From assembly GCF_003752365.1 (NCBI RefSeq), contig NZ_RJUO01000005.1:186001-250000 (forward strand): a stretch of DNA of 64,000 nt. The letters are read 5' to 3'. The notes under the pieces are model-generated. The model searched no databases, was not told the DNA's origin, and saw only the letters and a program-made list of their open reading frames with translations. This document shows positions 2,327-7,991 of the stretch, one piece after another. The translations under genes were made by a program, and so were the position numbers. The first letter of the stretch is position 1. Each line of letters starts with the position of its first letter. The DNA is from Frondihabitans sp. PhB188 (GTDB taxonomy: Bacteria > Actinomycetota > Actinomycetes > Actinomycetales > Microbacteriaceae).

Positions 2327-2371
2327 CCCGGCACACTAGCCGCTCTGCCCGGCCGTCAGGCGCCGGTTGGT

Positions 2372-2377
2372 TAGAGT
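2372..2377 (+). promoter_or_regulatory. -10 box of accD, leaderless
   Basis: TAGAGT lies 7 nt before the GTG at 2385, with no ribosome binding site between them. This spacing puts the transcription start at or next to the start codon. No convincing -35 is visible. Confidence 0.6.
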
Positions 2378-2384
2378 TGTCGCC

Positions 2385-3986
2385 GTGACCGACGAAACCC
2401 CCACGACCGACCGCCTCTCCTCCACCGCCGGCAGAGTCGCCGACCTCCAGCAGAGGTTCGACGACGCCGTCACCGCCCCCGAGGCGATCGCGCAGGAGAA
2501 GCAGCACAAGCGCGGCAAGAAGACGGCGCGCGAGCGCATCGAGGGCCTGCTCGACCACGGCTCGTTCGTCGAGCTCGACGAGTTCGTCCGTCACCGCACC
2601 ACAGCCTTCGGCATGGATGCCAAGCGCCCCTACGGCGACTCCGTCGTCACCGGCACCGGCACCATCGGCGGGCGCCAGGTCGCGATCTACTCGCAGGACT
2701 TCACCACGTTCGGCGGATCGCTCGGCGAGGTCGCCGGCGAGAAGATCATCAAGGTCATGGAGCTCGCGATCAAGACCGGCGTGCCGATCATCGGCATGCT
2801 CGACTCGGGCGGCGCGCGCATCCAGGAGGGCGTCGTCGCGCTCGGCAAGTACGGCGAGATCTTCAAGCTGAACACCGCGGCCTCGGGCGTGATCCCGCAG
2901 ATCTCGATCATCATGGGCCCGGCGGCCGGCGGTGCGGTCTACTCCCCCGCGCTCACCGACTTCGTCATCATGGTCGACAAGACCAGCCAGATGTTCGTCA
3001 CCGGCCCCGACGTCATCAAGACCGTCACCGGGGAGGACGTCGGCTTCGAGGAGCTCGGCGGCGCCCTGACCCACAACAAGGTCTCGGGCGTCTCGCACTA
3101 CCTCGCCTCCGACGAGGACGACGCGCTCGACTACGTCGCGGCCCTGCTGTCGTACCTGCCCGACAACAACCTCACCGACGCCCCGGTGTTCGACGTGGCT
3201 CCCGAGATGGAGATCACCGACGCCGACCGCACGCTGAACACGCTCATCCCCGACTCTCCGAACCAGCCGTACGACATGCTCACCGTCATCGAGCACATCG
3301 TCGACGACGGCGAGTTCCTCGAGGTGCAGCCGCTGTTCTCTCCGAACATCGTCATCGGCCTCGGCCGCGTCGAGGGCCGCTCGGTCGGCATCATCGCCAA
3401 CCAGCCGAACGTCATGGCCGGCACGCTCAACATCGACGCCGGAGAGAAGGCCGCGCGCTTCGTGCGCTTCTGCGACGCGTTCTCGATCCCCATCCTCACG
3501 CTCGTCGACACCCCCGGATTCCTGCCCGGCACCGACCAGGAGTGGACCGGCATCATCCGCCGCGGCGCCAAGCTCCTCTACGCGTATGCCGAGGCCACCG
3601 TGCCGCTGGTCACCGTCATCACCCGCAAGGCGTACGGCGGGGCCTACATCGTCATGGGCTCGAAGCAGCTCGGCGCCGACATCAACCTCGCGTGGCCGAC
3701 CGCCGAGATCGCCGTGATGGGCGGCCAGGGCGCCGTCAACATCCTCTACCGGTCGGAGATCAAGCGGGCGACGGACGCCGGCGAAGACGTCTCTGCCGTC
3801 CGCACCAAGCTCGCGAACGACTACACCTACAACGTGGCGTCGCCGTTCCTCGCGGCGGAGCGCGGCGAGCTCGACGGCATCGTCGAGCCGGCCGCGACCC
3901 GCACTGCCGTCATCAAGGCCCTGCGTGCCATGCGCACCAAGCGGGCGTCGCAGCCGGCCAAGAAGCACGGGAACATCCCACTGTGA
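2385..3986 (+). CDS. accD: Acyl-CoA carboxylase beta subunit (carboxyltransferase)
   Basis: A 533-residue carboxyltransferase that moves the carboxyl group from carboxybiotin to acetyl- or propionyl-CoA, giving malonyl- or methylmalonyl-CoA for fatty-acid synthesis. The sequence has the two crotonase-like halves of the PccB/AccD5 family, with the acyl-CoA pocket loop [12 protein letters not shown] near residue 145 and the biotin-side loop VDTPGFLPG near residue 375. An in-frame TTG at 2367 would add six residues. I prefer the GTG at 2385 because a TAGAGT -10 box sits 7 nt upstream, making a leaderless message. accE follows with a GTGA overlap, and the biotinylated alpha subunit is at 10017-11777. 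Acyl-chain preference cannot be read from sequence alone. Confidence 0.95.
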
Positions 3987-4219
3987 GCGAGCAGCCCTCT
4001 CCGCCCGACGACCCGACCATCCGCGTCGTCTCCGGCAACCCGACACCGGAGGAGCTCGCGGCCGTCACGGCCGTGCTCAGCGCGTTGGCGGCCGAAGCCG
4101 AGGCCGAGAGCGCCGCGCGTCGTGTCCCGGAGGGCCAGACCGGCTGGGCCGAGTCGCAGCGCGCGCTCCGCGCGCCGCTGCGCACGGGGCCCGGGCAGTG
4201 GACGCGGCACAGCGCCTGA
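3983..4219 (+). CDS. accE: Acyl-CoA carboxylase epsilon subunit
   Basis: A 78-residue protein whose start overlaps the accD stop (GTGA). It carries the conserved segment of actinobacterial AccE-type subunits, [19 protein letters not shown] at about residues 14-32, followed by a charged Ala/Glu stretch and a Trp-containing tail ([10 protein letters not shown]). In characterised actinobacteria the epsilon subunit stabilises the alpha-beta carboxylase complex and raises its activity. The family assignment is solid from the motif and the gene position. The effect on substrate choice is unknown here. Confidence 0.9.
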
Positions 4220-4320
4220 TCGACACAGCGCCTGATCGACGACACAGCGCCCAGGTACCCCGTTTCGGTCGTCCCTGGCGATTTCGTACCCCGAAATTCG
4301 CATTCCTTTCGACCACGTGC

Positions 4321-4375
4321 GGCAGACATCCCCACAACGGGGGGCATCGGTTCGAAACGAACCGGACTGTCTGCC
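4321..4375 (+). other. Nested hairpins downstream of accE
   Basis: An 8-bp stem (4321-4328 with 4368-4375, GGCAGACA/TGTCTGCC) encloses two hairpins: CCCC/GGGG at 4330-4342 and CGGTTCG/CGAACCG at 4348-4364. It lies about 100 bp after accE and is followed by a C-rich run rather than a T tract. It may end accDE transcription or be part of a larger structured RNA. Function unknown. Confidence 0.5.
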
Positions 4376-4402
4376 CCCCGGTGTCCCCCTAAATGACGAC
4401 TT

Positions 4403-4431
4403 TTGGCAACACGCTCAGTTCGGCATTATTA
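4403..4431 (+). promoter_or_regulatory. Candidate promoter of the 4438-4606 RNA
   Basis: TTGGCA at 4403-4408, a 17-bp spacer and TTATTA at 4426-4431 form a plausible sigma-70-type promoter in a locally AT-rich patch. Transcription would start near 4438, just before the structured segment. Confidence 0.45.
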
Positions 4432-4437
4432 CTTGTG

Positions 4438-4606
4438 CTAGGTGTCTCTCTCAGAGTTACACCACCGAACAGGGGCCGCTACGCGGCCAGGGCTTACTAG
4501 GGTAAGCAAGCCTGTGACTGTTCGGGGGCGAGTCAGGGTGATATTCGGGTTGTCGCCCTGACTCGGGGGTTTTGCGAAGGGCCGGACTGGGTGTCCGGCC
4601 CTTCTG
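4438..4606 (+). ncRNA. Candidate structured small RNA, about 170 nt
   Basis: The segment folds on paper into a closed multibranch unit. Stem CCGAACAG/CTGTTCGG (4465-4472 with 4518-4525) encloses hairpins GGCCGC/GCGGCC (4474-4488, loop TAC) and GCTTAC/GTAAGC (4492-4507, loop TAGG). A long hairpin follows (4529-4543 with 4551-4565, including G-U pairs), then a strong terminator-like hairpin at 4576-4604. A promoter-like sequence precedes it. No open reading frame of note fits. It does not show the signatures I know for tmRNA, RNase P RNA, SRP RNA or 6S RNA. Being an RNA gene is inference from the dense pairing and the flanking signals. The alternative is a leader or terminator region with no gene product. 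Confidence 0.5.
4576..4604 (+). terminator. Strong hairpin ending the candidate RNA
   Basis: A 12-bp perfect stem (4576-4587 with 4593-4604, core GGGCCGGAC/GTCCGGCCC) has a 5-nt loop and is followed only by CTGCAGTT. The U tract is poor, as is common in high-GC actinobacteria. Confidence 0.6.
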
Positions 4607-4817
4607 CAGTTAAGCGGCACGCTCGGGCGGGTGCCGCTTCGCGGGGTCCACCCCAGCCCCGCCGGATCGGCACAGCCCCGCCGTCGCCGCGCCGGGATCG
4701 TGCCGTTCCGTCGGGCTTACCGCCCGGTGGCGGCAGTGGCGGCGGGTTCGGGGCGGGCGGCGGCGGCGGTGTCCGGGGCGGCGCCGAGGTCGGCGGGGCT
4801 CCCGAGTTCCTGCGCGA
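4607..4817. other. Intergenic, no feature recognised
   Basis: GC-rich sequence between the candidate RNA and the converging gene at 4818. It contains runs of GGCGG repeats near 4730-4780 but no gene, promoter or hairpin that I would defend. Confidence 0.5.
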
Positions 4818-5915
4818 TCAGGCGTCTACGGCGTCAGCGGGCACGGACGAGCGCGGGATCTGCAGCCACAGGCTGACCTCGTCTTCGTCGTCGTCGTCTT
4901 CGTCGTCATCGAAGTCCTCGCCGTCGGCGTTCGACGAACCGAGCGCGCTCGACTGGAGGTCTTCGGAGCTGAGGCCGACGACGGTCACGGCGTACTCGCT
5001 GCCGGGAGCCACCGTGCGGATGATGAGGCGGTCGGCCGACGAGTCGCGGATCGCGCTGGCGAGGGCGGCGTGGACGCGGGCGAGCTCGCCGTCTTCGAGG
5101 TCGTCGATCCCGCCCTCGTCGAGCAGGCTGACGATGGTGCCGCGGCGGCGCGCTGCCATGACCTCGTGGCGCACGTCGTCGCTGAGCAGCCGGCGTCCGC
5201 GGATCTCGTCGCGGATCGCCCCCTCGAGGTTGAGGCACTCCTGGCGTTCGGCCTCGGTGAGGTCGCCACCCGCGGCGACGATGCGCTGCAGCATGGGGCG
5301 GGCGGTGCGGCCGGTCTGGAGCAGCCGGAACTGGCGCTCGTTGACGTGGGCCTCCTGAGCGGCCTGCCAGTCGGCGGCCTCCTGCTCGGCCCGGATGAAC
5401 TCGCGGGTGTCCCGGCTGGCGCGGGCCAGGGTGACCTGGAGAGCGTGCGAGATGCCGACCCAGCTCACGCTGCCGACCACGCCGAGGCTGGCGACGTCGG
5501 CGAAGGTGCCGCTCCAGACAACCGAGTGCACGACGAGGAATCCGACGCCGGCCCAGGCGAATCCGTGACGGCGACGGGTCGACACGATGACCATGAGGGT
5601 GCCGACGGCGGCGACGTACCAGGTGGCGTAGCCGTTGCCGCCGGGGCGGTGCGGGTCGAGCTGCGACGCGACGGCGAGCGGAAGGATGATCGAGACGGCG
5701 AGGCACAGGCATGCGATCCACACCGGCATGGTGAGGCTCTTCGACTTGTTCGGGTACAGCGCGACGATCGTCGCCGCGGCGTAGAGCGCCATGCAGATGA
5801 GCACCGGCACCGGGTTGCGCGGCACCTCGAGCGACACGAAGGCCAGCAGCAGGTGGTATAGCGAGAAGATGCCGGCGAGGCCGATAGGCAGCCAGCGGGG
5901 AAGCTTGACGTTCAC
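4818..5915 (-). CDS. Membrane protein, degenerate sensor-kinase-like partner
   Basis: A 365-residue protein with about six membrane segments in the first 170 residues, then a helical stretch and a soluble region shaped like the dimerisation and ATPase parts of a sensor kinase (ending in a VSLWLQIP strand). It lacks a convincing phospho-accepting His and any N or G ATP-binding box. A very acidic run (about 16 Asp/Glu in 20 residues) interrupts the last third. The GTG start overlaps the kinase stop (GTGA) with AGGAG upstream. It is the third gene of a regulator-kinase-partner operon, so a pseudokinase or sensory accessory role is inferred. I do not recognise a named family. Confidence 0.75.
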   Translation of the reverse strand: MNVKLPRWLPIGLAGIFSLYHLLLAFVSLEVPRNPVPVLICMALYAAATIVALYPNKSKSLTMPVWIACLCLAVSIILPLAVASQLDPHRPGGNGYATWYVAAVGTLMVIVSTRRRHGFAWAGVGFLVVHSVVWSGTFADVASLGVVGSVSWVGISHALQVTLARASRDTREFIRAEQEAADWQAAQEAHVNERQFRLLQTGRTARPMLQRIVAAGGDLTEAERQECLNLEGAIRDEIRGRRLLSDDVRHEVMAARRRGTIVSLLDEGGIDDLEDGELARVHAALASAIRDSSADRLIIRTVAPGSEYAVTVVGLSSEDLQSSALGSSNADGEDFDDDEDDDDEDEVSLWLQIPRSSVPADAVDA

Positions 5916-7231
5916 GAGATCTCCTGCTGGACGGTTGCGTGCTCGGGGATCGAGCGCTCGGGGATGGATTCGGCGGCGTCTGGCTCTTCGGCTCGCGGCG
6001 CCTGCCGCGGCCAGGCCAGGTCGATGACCGTGCCGGAGCCGGTCTTGGTGTGGATGGTGGCCTCGCCGCCGGCGTTCGACAGCCGCTCGGTGATCGAGAC
6101 GCGGACTCCGAGCCGTTCGCCCGGGACGGCTGCCGGGTTGAAGCCGGAGCCGGTGTCGCCGACCTCGACTCGCACCCGGCCGCCGGCCCACTTGAGGCTC
6201 ACCCACCGCGACACGTCGTCGCCGCCGGCGTGCTGGACGCTGTTGACCACGGCCTGGACGGCTGCCGAGTAGAGCGCCTCAGCGGCCCCGGCCGGGATGG
6301 AGTGGTCGTCGAGGCCTTTCGAGCTCACCTCGACCTCCGCGCCGAGCCCGTCGATCAGGACCTCGATGCGCTCCTGCATCGACGTCAGCGACGTCGACGA
6401 CTCGTCGAACGGGGTGACGCTGGCCGAGGTGGTCAGGTGCGACATCGCGTTCCGGGCCATCGTCGTGGCGAGCGCCATCTCGTCGGGCGAGTAGGCGCGC
6501 GCCGCCGAGATGAAGGTCGTCAGGACGCTGTCGTGGACGATCGCGTCGACCTGCACGCGCTCGAGCTCGGTCGCGTGCTCGCGGATGGCTCCCGAGTACC
6601 GGGCGACCGCCATGTTCTGGGCTCCGTCCACTGCGGCGGACGCCTGCCGCAGCAGGATGATCAGGATCAGGACGGCGCCACCGAGGATCACCGAGTAGAT
6701 CGTGTCGAGCGAGGCCCAGAACGGCAGGAGGCCGCCGCCCGACGGCGTGAGCTCGATGAGGCCGTAGATCGTCGGCGCCAGGATCAGATAGACGGTGGCG
6801 ATCCAGCGCGAGAAGGCGATGGCGGCGGCCGAGGTCGCGACCGAGATGAGGTAGTACAGCCAGGGCGACTGGGGCAGGACGGTCGTCGGGTCGCGCACGG
6901 CGAGCGGCCAGGTCACGAGCGCGACCAGGAACGAGATCGCGACGAACGCGGCCGCGGTCTCGATGCCGCGCATGAAGACGCTCGCCACGCCCACGGCGAG
7001 GATGCCGCCGAAGACGGCGATCGAGATGATCCAGCCCCAGGCGGGCTGCATGCTGCCCTGCTGCGCGATCAGGGAGGGGATCGACTGGAGGCCGAAGACG
7101 ATCCCGAGTGCGGCTAGAGCGCGCGCGAAGATCTTGTCGAGCAGCGGGCCGCTGATCGGGTTGCGTGTGGGCCTCGGTCGGAACGCAGGAACGGAGGAGG
7201 CTCCGTCAGCGGCCATCGCCGCCGTCCGCAT
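5912..7231 (-). CDS. Sensor histidine kinase, NarL-type system
   Basis: A 439-residue membrane kinase. Six or so hydrophobic segments lie between residues 35 and 195. They are followed by a helix with the likely phosphorylated His233 (IVHDSVL) and an ATPase domain with N box Asn330 (AVVNSVQHAG), G1 box DTGSGF at 359-364 and G2-like GERLGV at 371-376. The long extracytoplasmic sensor domain seen in many kinases is absent, so the signal is probably sensed in or at the membrane. It overlaps the response-regulator gene upstream and the partner gene downstream. The start is uncertain: ATG 7231 gives the longest protein, ATG 7216 is equally possible, and neither has a clear ribosome site. Confidence 0.85.
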   Translation of the reverse strand: MRTAAMAADGASSVPAFRPRPTRNPISGPLLDKIFARALAALGIVFGLQSIPSLIAQQGSMQPAWGWIISIAVFGGILAVGVASVFMRGIETAAAFVAISFLVALVTWPLAVRDPTTVLPQSPWLYYLISVATSAAAIAFSRWIATVYLILAPTIYGLIELTPSGGGLLPFWASLDTIYSVILGGAVLILIILLRQASAAVDGAQNMAVARYSGAIREHATELERVQVDAIVHDSVLTTFISAARAYSPDEMALATTMARNAMSHLTTSASVTPFDESSTSLTSMQERIEVLIDGLGAEVEVSSKGLDDHSIPAGAAEALYSAAVQAVVNSVQHAGGDDVSRWVSLKWAGGRVRVEVGDTGSGFNPAAVPGERLGVRVSITERLSNAGGEATIHTKTGSGTVIDLAWPRQAPRAEEPDAAESIPERSIPEHATVQQEIS

Positions 7232-7916
7232 CGAGCCCGGGCAGGATTCCGTCTTCGACGGCCCGGCGCAGGAGGTCGACCTTCGTCGGGGCCGGGCGGC
7301 CGACCTCGACGTACTTCACGCGGATGCGGTCGAGGTACTCGCGCGCGGTCGAGTAGCCGATGCCGAGCTGCTGGGCGGCCAGCTTGAGCGGCAGACCCGA
7401 TGCATAGAGGTGCAGGATCTCGCGCTCCCGCCGCCCGAGCTGCGCCTTGGCGAAGTCACGGTCGGCGTCGATCGCGCTCGCCCACTCGAGGTTGTTCAGG
7501 ACGTCGCCGCGGGCGACGGTCGCGACGGCGGCCATGACGGTCTTGGTCGCGGACGACTTCGGGATGACACCGGCGGCGCCTGCGGCCAGCGCCTCGCGGA
7601 CCGATGCGACGCGGTCGGCGATGCTGTGGACGAGGACGGCCGAGCCGGTCGCCTGCACGCGCTTGACGTTCTCGGTGACGGTCGAGCCGTCGCCGAGGGA
7701 GAGGTCGAGCACCACGACGTCGACCTCGCGCCCGGCGAGGTTGTCGACGAACTCCTGGACGCCGGCCGCCGTGAGGATCACGGTGAAGCCCTCGTTCTGG
7801 CACGCCGCCTGAATGCCGAGGCGCACCGACTCGTGGTCGTCGACGATGGCGACGCGGACGGGAGCGGCGCTCCGGGGTGTGGGAGCGTTGCTCGGGTCAG
7901 TCGTGGTTTCTGGCAC
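7206..7916 (-). CDS. Response regulator, NarL/LuxR type
   Basis: A 236-residue two-domain regulator. The receiver domain has the acidic pair Asp26-Asp27, the phosphorylated Asp71 (VVVLD) and Lys120. The C-terminal DNA-binding part (about 158-205) has the helix-turn-helix pattern GRREREILHLYASG. The partner is the kinase encoded next. I chose the GTG at 7916 because GAAGGA lies 5 nt upstream of it. The ATG at 7922 would overlap that ribosome site, and the longer form starting at 7970 has no support. Target genes are unknown, though autoregulation of the operon is common in this family. Confidence 0.88.
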   Translation of the reverse strand: MPETTTDPSNAPTPRSAAPVRVAIVDDHESVRLGIQAACQNEGFTVILTAAGVQEFVDNLAGREVDVVVLDLSLGDGSTVTENVKRVQATGSAVLVHSIADRVASVREALAAGAAGVIPKSSATKTVMAAVATVARGDVLNNLEWASAIDADRDFAKAQLGRREREILHLYASGLPLKLAAQQLGIGYSTAREYLDRIRVKYVEVGRPAPTKVDLLRRAVEDGILPGLDADGGDGR

Positions 7917-7991
7917 GATCATCCTTCGTTCGATGGACGCGTCGGGTCCCTGATTTCCCCGGGCGTCCACCCGGAATTCTATCGGGATCGG

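Follow-up and report, generated by a model that had tools for sequence, protein, structure and literature searches.

The window analysed here comprises 64,000 nucleotides of the genome of Frondihabitans sp. PhB188, a member of the Microbacteriaceae (assembly GCF_003752365.1, contig NZ_RJUO01000005.1, positions 186,001 to 250,000 of the forward strand). Within it, a predicted small RNA (sRNA) gene sits between a pair of genes that we take to be accD and accE (the names follow an earlier, sequence-only reading of this DNA) and a two-component system. A further predicted gene separates the sRNA from the histidine kinase gene, and its product looks, by eye, like a membrane protein (Table 1).

Table 1. 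Coordinates of the features at the sRNA locus, in window positions.
Feature	Position	Strand	Basis or remark
accD (propionyl/acetyl-CoA carboxylase beta-type)	2367..3986	+	neighbour; followed by accE, 3983-4219
Possible further box copy GTACCCCGAAATTCG	4286..4300	+	chance level alone; aligned in Frondihabitans
Operator-like ATCCCCACAACGGGGGGCAT (class B-like box)	4328..4347	+	aligned in 7 Frondihabitans; conserved core of the upstream structure
Promoter box TGTCCCCCTAAATGACGAC (class A), 19 bp	4382..4400	+	common to Frondihabitans fliA promoters
-10-like TATTAC	4427..4432	+	first base 44 nt past that of GTCCCCC; relatives retain its position, and its sequence loosely
sRNA gene as modelled (covariance model R1, 158 positions)	4435..4612	+	fold z, covariance match, covariation
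Hairpin P1	4441..4463	+	fold and covariation (helices 1 and 2)
Hairpin P2	4465..4525	+	fold and covariation; extra hairpin at about 4474-4488 strain-specific
P2 loop element AGGGTAAGC	4499..4507	+	complementary to GCTTACCC(T) of the exopolysaccharide leader
Hairpin P3, 15 bp	4529..4565	+	fold and covariation
P3 loop ATTCGGGTT	4543..4551	+	complementary to ACCCGAA copies in the exopolysaccharide leader
P4, 12-bp intrinsic-terminator-like hairpin	4576..4604	+	fold and covariation
Predicted gene between histidine kinase and sRNA	4818..5915	-	start approximate; no Pfam match; in 43/61 loci
Sensor histidine kinase	5912..7231	-	PF02518; detected in 51/61 sRNA loci
Response regulator	7206..7919	-	PF00072; GerE/LuxR HTH below its cut-off

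The segment from 4435 to 4612 is predicted to fold into four hairpins, P1, P2, P3 and P4, with a minimum free energy of -99.0 kcal/mol, in comparison with -70.5 +/- 4.5 kcal/mol for 200 dinucleotide shuffles (z -6.3). None of the 200 shuffles folds as well, so the pairings are not random, and those named in the sequence-only reading, an 8-bp stem enclosing two hairpins (4465-4472 with 4518-4525) followed by stems at 4529-4565 and 4576-4604, are found exactly where that reading had placed them. The extra hairpin within P2 is an insertion that this strain alone has in the alignment of 22 sequences, and the GCUUAC of this strain (4492-4497) may, as judged by eye, pair with the P2 loop and partly hide it. 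From the position of the -10 element, the true 5' end of the sRNA is probably at about 4438-4441. Simple scans of the + strand called neither a promoter nor a terminator for the sRNA, a consequence of the weak -35 region and the lack of a U tract in this strain; a T-rich tail follows the terminator hairpin in several relatives. The sRNA is not protein-coding, since no ORF is constant in place and length across the alignment of 22 (one frame, which begins with GTG at position 8, spans from 5 to 39 codons), and the sequence changes keep the base pairs, which also argues against coding.

A BLAST search detected the sRNA in 22 of 59 other genomes, corresponding to 22 of the 36 from the same family and none of the 23 from other families, and the covariance model R1 finds it in 171 of 249 Microbacteriaceae genomes, with the window's own copy scoring 139.8 bits (G000:C5:190435-190612; G000 is the genome of the window). 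An order-wide set gave R1 matches in 13 of 248 genomes, nine of which, including that in the window's own genome, are credible and belong to Microbacteriaceae. Weak matches in three of the 248 genomes, all from family f10, were rejected as homologues from outside the family (two overlap tRNA-Leu and one adjoins tRNA-Met), as was a candidate distant homologue (L072) that proved to be a lone hairpin. A pattern scan of a collection of 84,980 species matched 99 stretches. Of the 80 listed, nearly all are labelled with Microbacteriaceae genera (Leifsonia, Cryobacterium, Herbiconiux, Glaciihabitans, Humibacter, Salinibacterium, Naasia, Frigoribacterium, Frondihabitans and others), the exceptions being one Acidobacteria label and a few metagenome-assembled genomes with no finer label than Actinomycetota, actinobacterium or Micrococcales.

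The alignment A1 (22 sequences, the sRNA being 152-178 nt long as aligned; L024 was excluded, as it matches well in the P3 region only) yields an RNAalifold consensus of 47 base pairs, 31 of which show two-sided changes, and a covariation score of 0.375, compared with 0.190 +/- 0.009 when the columns are shuffled and no more than 0.14 when the structure is slid. With 86 distinct sequences, two-sided changes are seen in 40 of the 47 pairs and the score is 0.435 versus 0.162; for both sets, none of 500 shuffles attains the observed values. Compensatory changes, which the earlier reading had proposed as a check, are plentiful, and they extend over P1, P2 and P3, beyond the terminator alone (P4, two-sided changes in 12/12 pairs). 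The P3 loop ATTCGGGTT is found in 21 of the 22 A1 sequences (L020 has GTTCGGGTC) and in all 88 sequences of the larger alignment A3. The P2 loop AGGGTAAG / AGGGUAAG is found in 18 of the 22 (L018, L019, L020 and L022 differ), and its conservation in A3 is by construction, because 80 of the A3 sequences derive from loci (80 of the 99 stretches) found by a search pattern that contains this loop. The genus g97 (L064-L069) possesses a divergent form of the sRNA without the AGGGUAAG P2 loop, with UCGGGU there in 4/6 loci; this change repeats the P3 seed, and both loops would then read the same word.

At the gathering score, Rfam 15 recognises only tRNA in the whole 64-kb window and nothing at the sRNA or in the sRNA loci of four relatives (L126, L147, L150, L064), and even at E<=10 the best matches in the region 3500-5500 are far below threshold. 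The proposal of a new small RNA outside the known families is upheld by this result, by the fold and covariation, and by the presence of the element throughout the family: we regard the locus as almost certainly encoding a real, family-wide structured sRNA that lacks an Rfam family.

The box upstream of the sRNA has a single match in the window with up to three mismatches, and nearly every aligned relative retains it in front of the sRNA. This 19-bp element (TGTCCYCCNAAATGMCGAC) ends 26 nt before the -10-like element. The promoter proposed earlier, TTGGCA (4403-4408) and TTATTA (4426-4431) separated by 17 nt, is literally there, and its -10 region is kept in relatives, but TTGGCA is not conserved as a -35 element. 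Allowing up to two mismatches, the box has 5-9 sites in each of seven Frondihabitans genomes versus none for a reversed control, while a search of all 40 genomes found matches in 20, the reversed control having matched three times. The box is situated upstream of a FliA/WhiG-type sigma factor gene in 7/7 Frondihabitans (with one mismatch in G004), and this gene lies 23-27 kb from flhA in the six Frondihabitans genomes covered; the FliA protein of the window's genome has FliA_WhiG as its best NCBIfam match (135 bits versus a cut-off of 190). Two-mismatch boxes precede genes for secreted enzymes of families GH6 (G000, G006), GH16 and GH18 (G001), and many other matches precede nothing clear or fall in coding-like ORFs. 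From its position and from the co-occurrence described below, it is plausible that the neighbouring response regulator binds the box at 4382-4400; upstream of the response-regulator operon itself, no box is present within the window. The sequence GTACCCCG, considered as a regulator site in its own right, occurs at chance level in the window.

Further occurrences of the box include a one-mismatch copy that precedes an RpoD-like sigma gene in a single Frondihabitans genome (G003; L109:1482-2907), a pair of copies, 32 bp from each other, in front of a gene for a GH18 secreted protein (G001; L114:1500-1551), and a variant, TGTCCCCCTAAGTGCTGAC, with an identical 25-nt left flank near two contig ends (L106:70, L107:71; G000:C6, C7), suggesting a repeat that broke the assembly. 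The fliA gene of Frondihabitans has an upstream region of ~230 nt in which a CCCCCG-AGTGGGG-like element adjoins the box (L026:1501-1740; L080-L083, L094-L096).

A nested structure that the sequence-only reading had described at 4321-4375 does exist as a weak fold (z -2.2 for 4309-4385, with 6/200 shuffles as good), but it lies upstream of the promoter and is not part of the RNA. Across the seven Frondihabitans genomes, conservation is limited to an operator-like core of the form CCCC-(5-6 nt)-GGGGG and does not extend to the GGTTCGAAACGAACC palindrome; the fold lies in promoter DNA. The operator-like ATCCCCACAACGGGGGGCAT resembles, by eye, the box GTCCCCC(G/A)AA(A/G)TGGGG(G/T)CATG of the exopolysaccharide promoter discussed below. 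At the position of the possible further copy GTACCCCGAAATTCG, five of the six other Frondihabitans have TGTCCCCC (followed in four by TTCG) and the sixth has CGTCCCCCGAAATG.

The gene neighbourhood of the sRNA is well conserved. In a set of 61 loci, which counts some genomes twice, accD lies beside the sRNA in 58 (upstream in 55, flipped in three loci from two genomes), and the sRNA and the response-regulator gene are no more than 12 kb apart in all 128 genomes listed by both searches. The two are convergent in 120 of these and flipped in eight, namely G006, five genomes of one genus (G093, G151, G196, G238, G274), G168 and G229 (genera g1, g6, g68, g86); G005, seen in the 61-locus set, is also flipped. 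The sRNA gene has thus been turned around between the same neighbours in several genera (L003, L006, L031; G168, G229, genus g86), and in G006, the sole flipped genome viewed closely, the promoter box is flipped along with it (L078, L006). These inversions relative to the response-regulator gene indicate that the sRNA is probably its own gene, and the repeated flipping of the unit argues for its having its own promoter and terminator.

Among the 249 genomes, a response-regulator orthologue at E<=1e-70 and the sRNA are both present in 168, the regulator alone in nine, the sRNA alone in three and neither in 69, where the threshold was chosen post hoc and the Fisher values for these counts take no account of phylogeny; at E<=1e-45, the corresponding numbers are 169, 19, 2 and 59. 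FlhA is encoded in 81 of the 249 genomes, all 81 of which have the response regulator (1e-70) and 79 the sRNA. A role restricted to flagellar genomes was rejected, as 92 genomes with the sRNA are without an FlhA match (here too, phylogeny is not corrected for).

The complement of the P3 loop led to an exopolysaccharide operon, through a cluster of ACCCGA motifs upstream of a gene in G000 that a PF02397 match confirms as a glycosyltransferase and that starts the polysaccharide operon. In 7/7 Frondihabitans, the sRNA loops AGGGUAAGC (P2) and AUUCGGGUU (P3) are both complementary to the leader of this operon. The P2-loop complement GCUUACCC is found at -66 in the same seven leaders, and GCTTACCC, likewise at -66 in 7/7, begins in the AUG of a 23-codon upstream ORF (MLT....R...R...RPES...S), the stop of which overlaps the start of the first glycosyltransferase gene. 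The density of GCTTACCC is 270 per 100 kb in the leaders versus 0.30 in 1,654 kb of other loci. Each leader contains 6-9 copies of ACCCGA (51 sense and 0 antisense over the seven leaders), and ACCCGAA is the most enriched 7-mer, with 22 occurrences versus 0.83 expected, although counts over the seven leaders are not independent because the leaders are homologous. When all 7-mers of the sRNA were scanned, those with complements in 7/7 leaders and above every shuffle came from the P2 loop and from the P3 loop, apart from a single P2-stem word, which shares UUCGGG; weaker words that exceed chance (TACGCGG, AGCGGGT, TCGGGAA) are represented in 4-5 of the seven leaders. The predicted duplexes of AGGGUAAGC with GCUUACCCU and of AUUCGGGU with ACCCGAAU have energies of -14.0 and -10.5 kcal/mol, respectively.

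The leaders extend over 331-396 nt from the presumed start and are C-rich and G-poor (C 0.38-0.42, G 0.22-0.27). Their promoter carries the related box quoted above, and in 7/7 a TANNNT begins 42 nt past the first base of that box; adjacent to the start codon is a hairpin whose stem varies and whose loop, (C/T)CCCGAAT, is fixed (by eye). Within the upstream ORF, the codons CTT and GAA are fixed and are otherwise rare in the first gene of the G000 operon (CTT for 0/62 Leu, GAA for 2/26 Glu), so that the constraint on this ORF is probably on its nucleotides. The leader (L241:3180-3720, that is G000:C1, about 299,180-299,720, with orthologues in L244-L250) is a regulatory leader worth study in itself.

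A second possible target is a beta-propeller surface-protein gene of G006, the leader of which carries complements of both loops (AACCCGAAT, AACCCGAAA and GCTTACCCTA, in antiparallel order). Elsewhere, GCTTACCC occurs upstream of two of 17 related glycosyltransferase genes, a sample that includes three Frondihabitans paralogues and six loci from other families; in both (G013 at -336, G011 at -267) it is not at the start codon, and the P2 loop of both genomes is exactly AGGGUAAGC. G014 also has the P2 loop AGGGUAAGC, but its related (split) gene is without GCTTACCC, and the motif is missing as well from G007, G008 and G012, in which the P3 loop is the same and the P2 loop is off by one or two bases (AGGGAAUGC, AGGGUAAGG, AGGGUAAGU); the complement of the changed P2 loop of G007 is found as one 7-mer at -326 upstream of its own related gene. 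As the exopolysaccharide target does not explain the near-invariance of P3 across the family, this loop needs another partner outside Frondihabitans.

No pairing site is conserved in the fliA and GH6 leaders (L080, L095 and L114 each have one copy of ACCCGAA), and the fliA leader was rejected as a target on this account. The P2 complement CTTACCCTA was discarded as a genome-wide seed, the sole match in G000 being the sRNA itself, and AACCCGAAT alone is unspecific, with 18 sites in G000, of which one is in the sRNA, one in the exopolysaccharide leader and 16 elsewhere. Three of these 16 are the loops of clear hairpins resembling terminators. Hairpins with the loop AACCCGAAT and strong stems (L226, L229 and L233 in G000, L277 in G004, L278 in G006) are possibly terminators with a shared loop, or else partners or sponges of the sRNA. 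A box-like CCCCCAAATTGGG precedes a related polysaccharide gene in another genus (L253:-, G011), about -449 from the glycosyltransferase match.

Conservation, structure, synteny, the shared box and the complementarity were computed, and from these we infer transcription, the identity of the activator, pairing and the direction of the effect. On balance, and with confidence somewhat above even, the locus is read as encoding a stand-alone, trans-acting sRNA that pairs through its loops within a motility/polysaccharide circuit. The sRNA would be transcribed from its own promoter and end at its own intrinsic terminator. It would be switched on by an activator, most likely the neighbouring two-component response regulator, bound to the GTCCCCC...AAATG box immediately ahead of the -10 element. 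It would act by RNA-RNA pairing via the two exposed, conserved loops, with the exopolysaccharide operon leader as its main target in Frondihabitans, a pairing that is considered probable from the complementarity. The P2 loop would pair with GCUUACCC, beginning in the AUG of the small upstream ORF, and the P3 loop both with the ACCCGA(A) repeats and with the CCCGAAU of the hairpin loop adjacent to the start codon. The predicted outcome is control, probably repression, of exopolysaccharide synthesis, coordinated with fliA and with some secreted glycosidases bearing the same kind of box. More tentatively, the response regulator, the sRNA and the operon may form a feed-forward circuit, in which boxes of one type drive the operon, the sRNA and the flagellar sigma factor alike. 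The two sRNA loops would read the 6-9 ACCCGA sites and the coupled ORF of the leader, and the number of these sites would set a dose-dependent switch between moving and sticking.

Several other explanations of the locus were weighed. Ordinary terminators, together with leftover 3' structure of accDE and of the neighbouring operon, might be mistaken for an RNA gene, and the locus does lie between convergent operons in most genomes; covariation in P1, P2 and P3 too, the near-invariant P3 loop, the conserved promoter box and -10 element, and the flipped orientation in 8/128 genomes make this barely credible. Alternatively, the partner of the loops may be RNA polymerase (RNAP) or some protein and not mRNAs, the conserved sRNA being a stand-in for 6S, Ms1 or CoRP RNA that exerts global regulation through sequestration of the transcription machinery or of an RNA-binding protein. 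This would fit the near-invariance of the P3 loop across the family, which the exopolysaccharide target does not share. It is also in agreement with the lack of an RF00013 match in the genome, with the absence of Microbacteriaceae among the predicted Ms1 carriers in Table 4 of PMC9130861, and with the proposal of other abundant RNAP-binding RNAs for lineages without 6S and Ms1 (PMC11077062). Such a function is nonetheless judged unlikely, as the fold lacks the long interrupted duplex and central bubble of 6S, the synteny is unlike that of Ms1, and the amassing of complements of both loops in one leader is not what it predicts. The ACCCGA repeats could also be DNA sites for the same regulator, similar to the CCCCGAAAT core of its box, in which case the P3 match would be coincidental or would itself be such a site within the sRNA gene; the exopolysaccharide box indeed contains CCCCGAAAT in 6/7 genomes, close to ACCCGAAT. 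This is decidedly improbable given 51 sense versus 0 antisense copies and a P3 that is a covarying RNA hairpin, and it leaves unexplained GCTTACCC at the start of the upstream ORF and its match to the P2 loop.

An alternative of another kind differs from the main reading in direction only, and the probabilities of the two overlap: the sRNA might switch the exopolysaccharide operon on, with the masking of a C-rich, Rho-prone leader or the unfolding of the start-codon hairpin as conceivable routes. The C-rich, G-poor composition of the leaders is consistent with this, and precedent exists for Rho-controlled leaders; furthermore, the box is positioned alike in the promoters of the operon and of the sRNA, so that both may switch on together. 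However, the P2 site is located where a small ORF coupled to the gene begins, and a P3 site adjoins the start codon; pairing at such positions usually blocks initiation. Repression by the loop-pairing sRNA is judged more likely than activation, which is rated somewhat unlikely.

Searches of open-access titles and abstract openings yielded no report of an sRNA of this family. What appears to be new here is the promoter box common to fliA and the two-loop match to the exopolysaccharide leader in 7/7 Frondihabitans. A family-wide structured RNA with a defined neighbouring regulator and a concrete target site offers a way into the study of sRNA-based control among high-GC Gram-positives. If pairing with the array is true, the leader would be an unusual multi-site mRNA leader and would give a means of approaching exopolysaccharide in genera associated with plants and soil.

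Compared with known RNAs, the sRNA is similar to Ms1 RNA in being an actinobacterial intergenic sRNA with conserved synteny. Its neighbours, however, are accD and a two-component system rather than the HAD hydrolase/oxidoreductase genes that are the conserved neighbours of Ms1 (PMC9130861), its fold differs, and its length is 152-178 nt as opposed to about 300 nt (PMC11077062). CoRP RNA of Corynebacterium is likewise a lineage-restricted actinobacterial RNA and is set apart here by its description, as a 516-nt RNA encoded between tRNA genes and found by experiment to be bound to RNAP (PMC11077062). The size range of 6S RNA is the same, but the consensus of the sRNA consists of four separate hairpins without a closing duplex with a central bubble; RF00013 gave no match in G000, and in the controls it matched in 5/14 genomes, four over the cut-off. 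With regard to MacRS of Streptomyces, the neighbouring histidine kinase has the MacS family as its best NCBIfam match at 48.7 bits versus a cut-off of 300, and is not a member by that model. Sponges of the CsrB/RsmZ type carry several GGA motifs in hairpin loops, and a CsrA sponge of this type was rejected here, since the P2 and P3 loops of the aligned sequences expose GGG, not GGA (by eye). Trans-acting base-pairing sRNAs such as those of the RNAIII-rot and OxyS-fhlA type use hairpin loops and double loop contacts. The sRNA described here differs from these in its G-rich loops, in a leader with many copies of ACCCGA, and in belonging to a phylum in which no Hfq is expected; it would resemble them in a promoter and terminator of its own, in stable hairpins and, in Frondihabitans, in conserved loops, predicted to be unpaired, that are complementary at two contact points to a translation start region.
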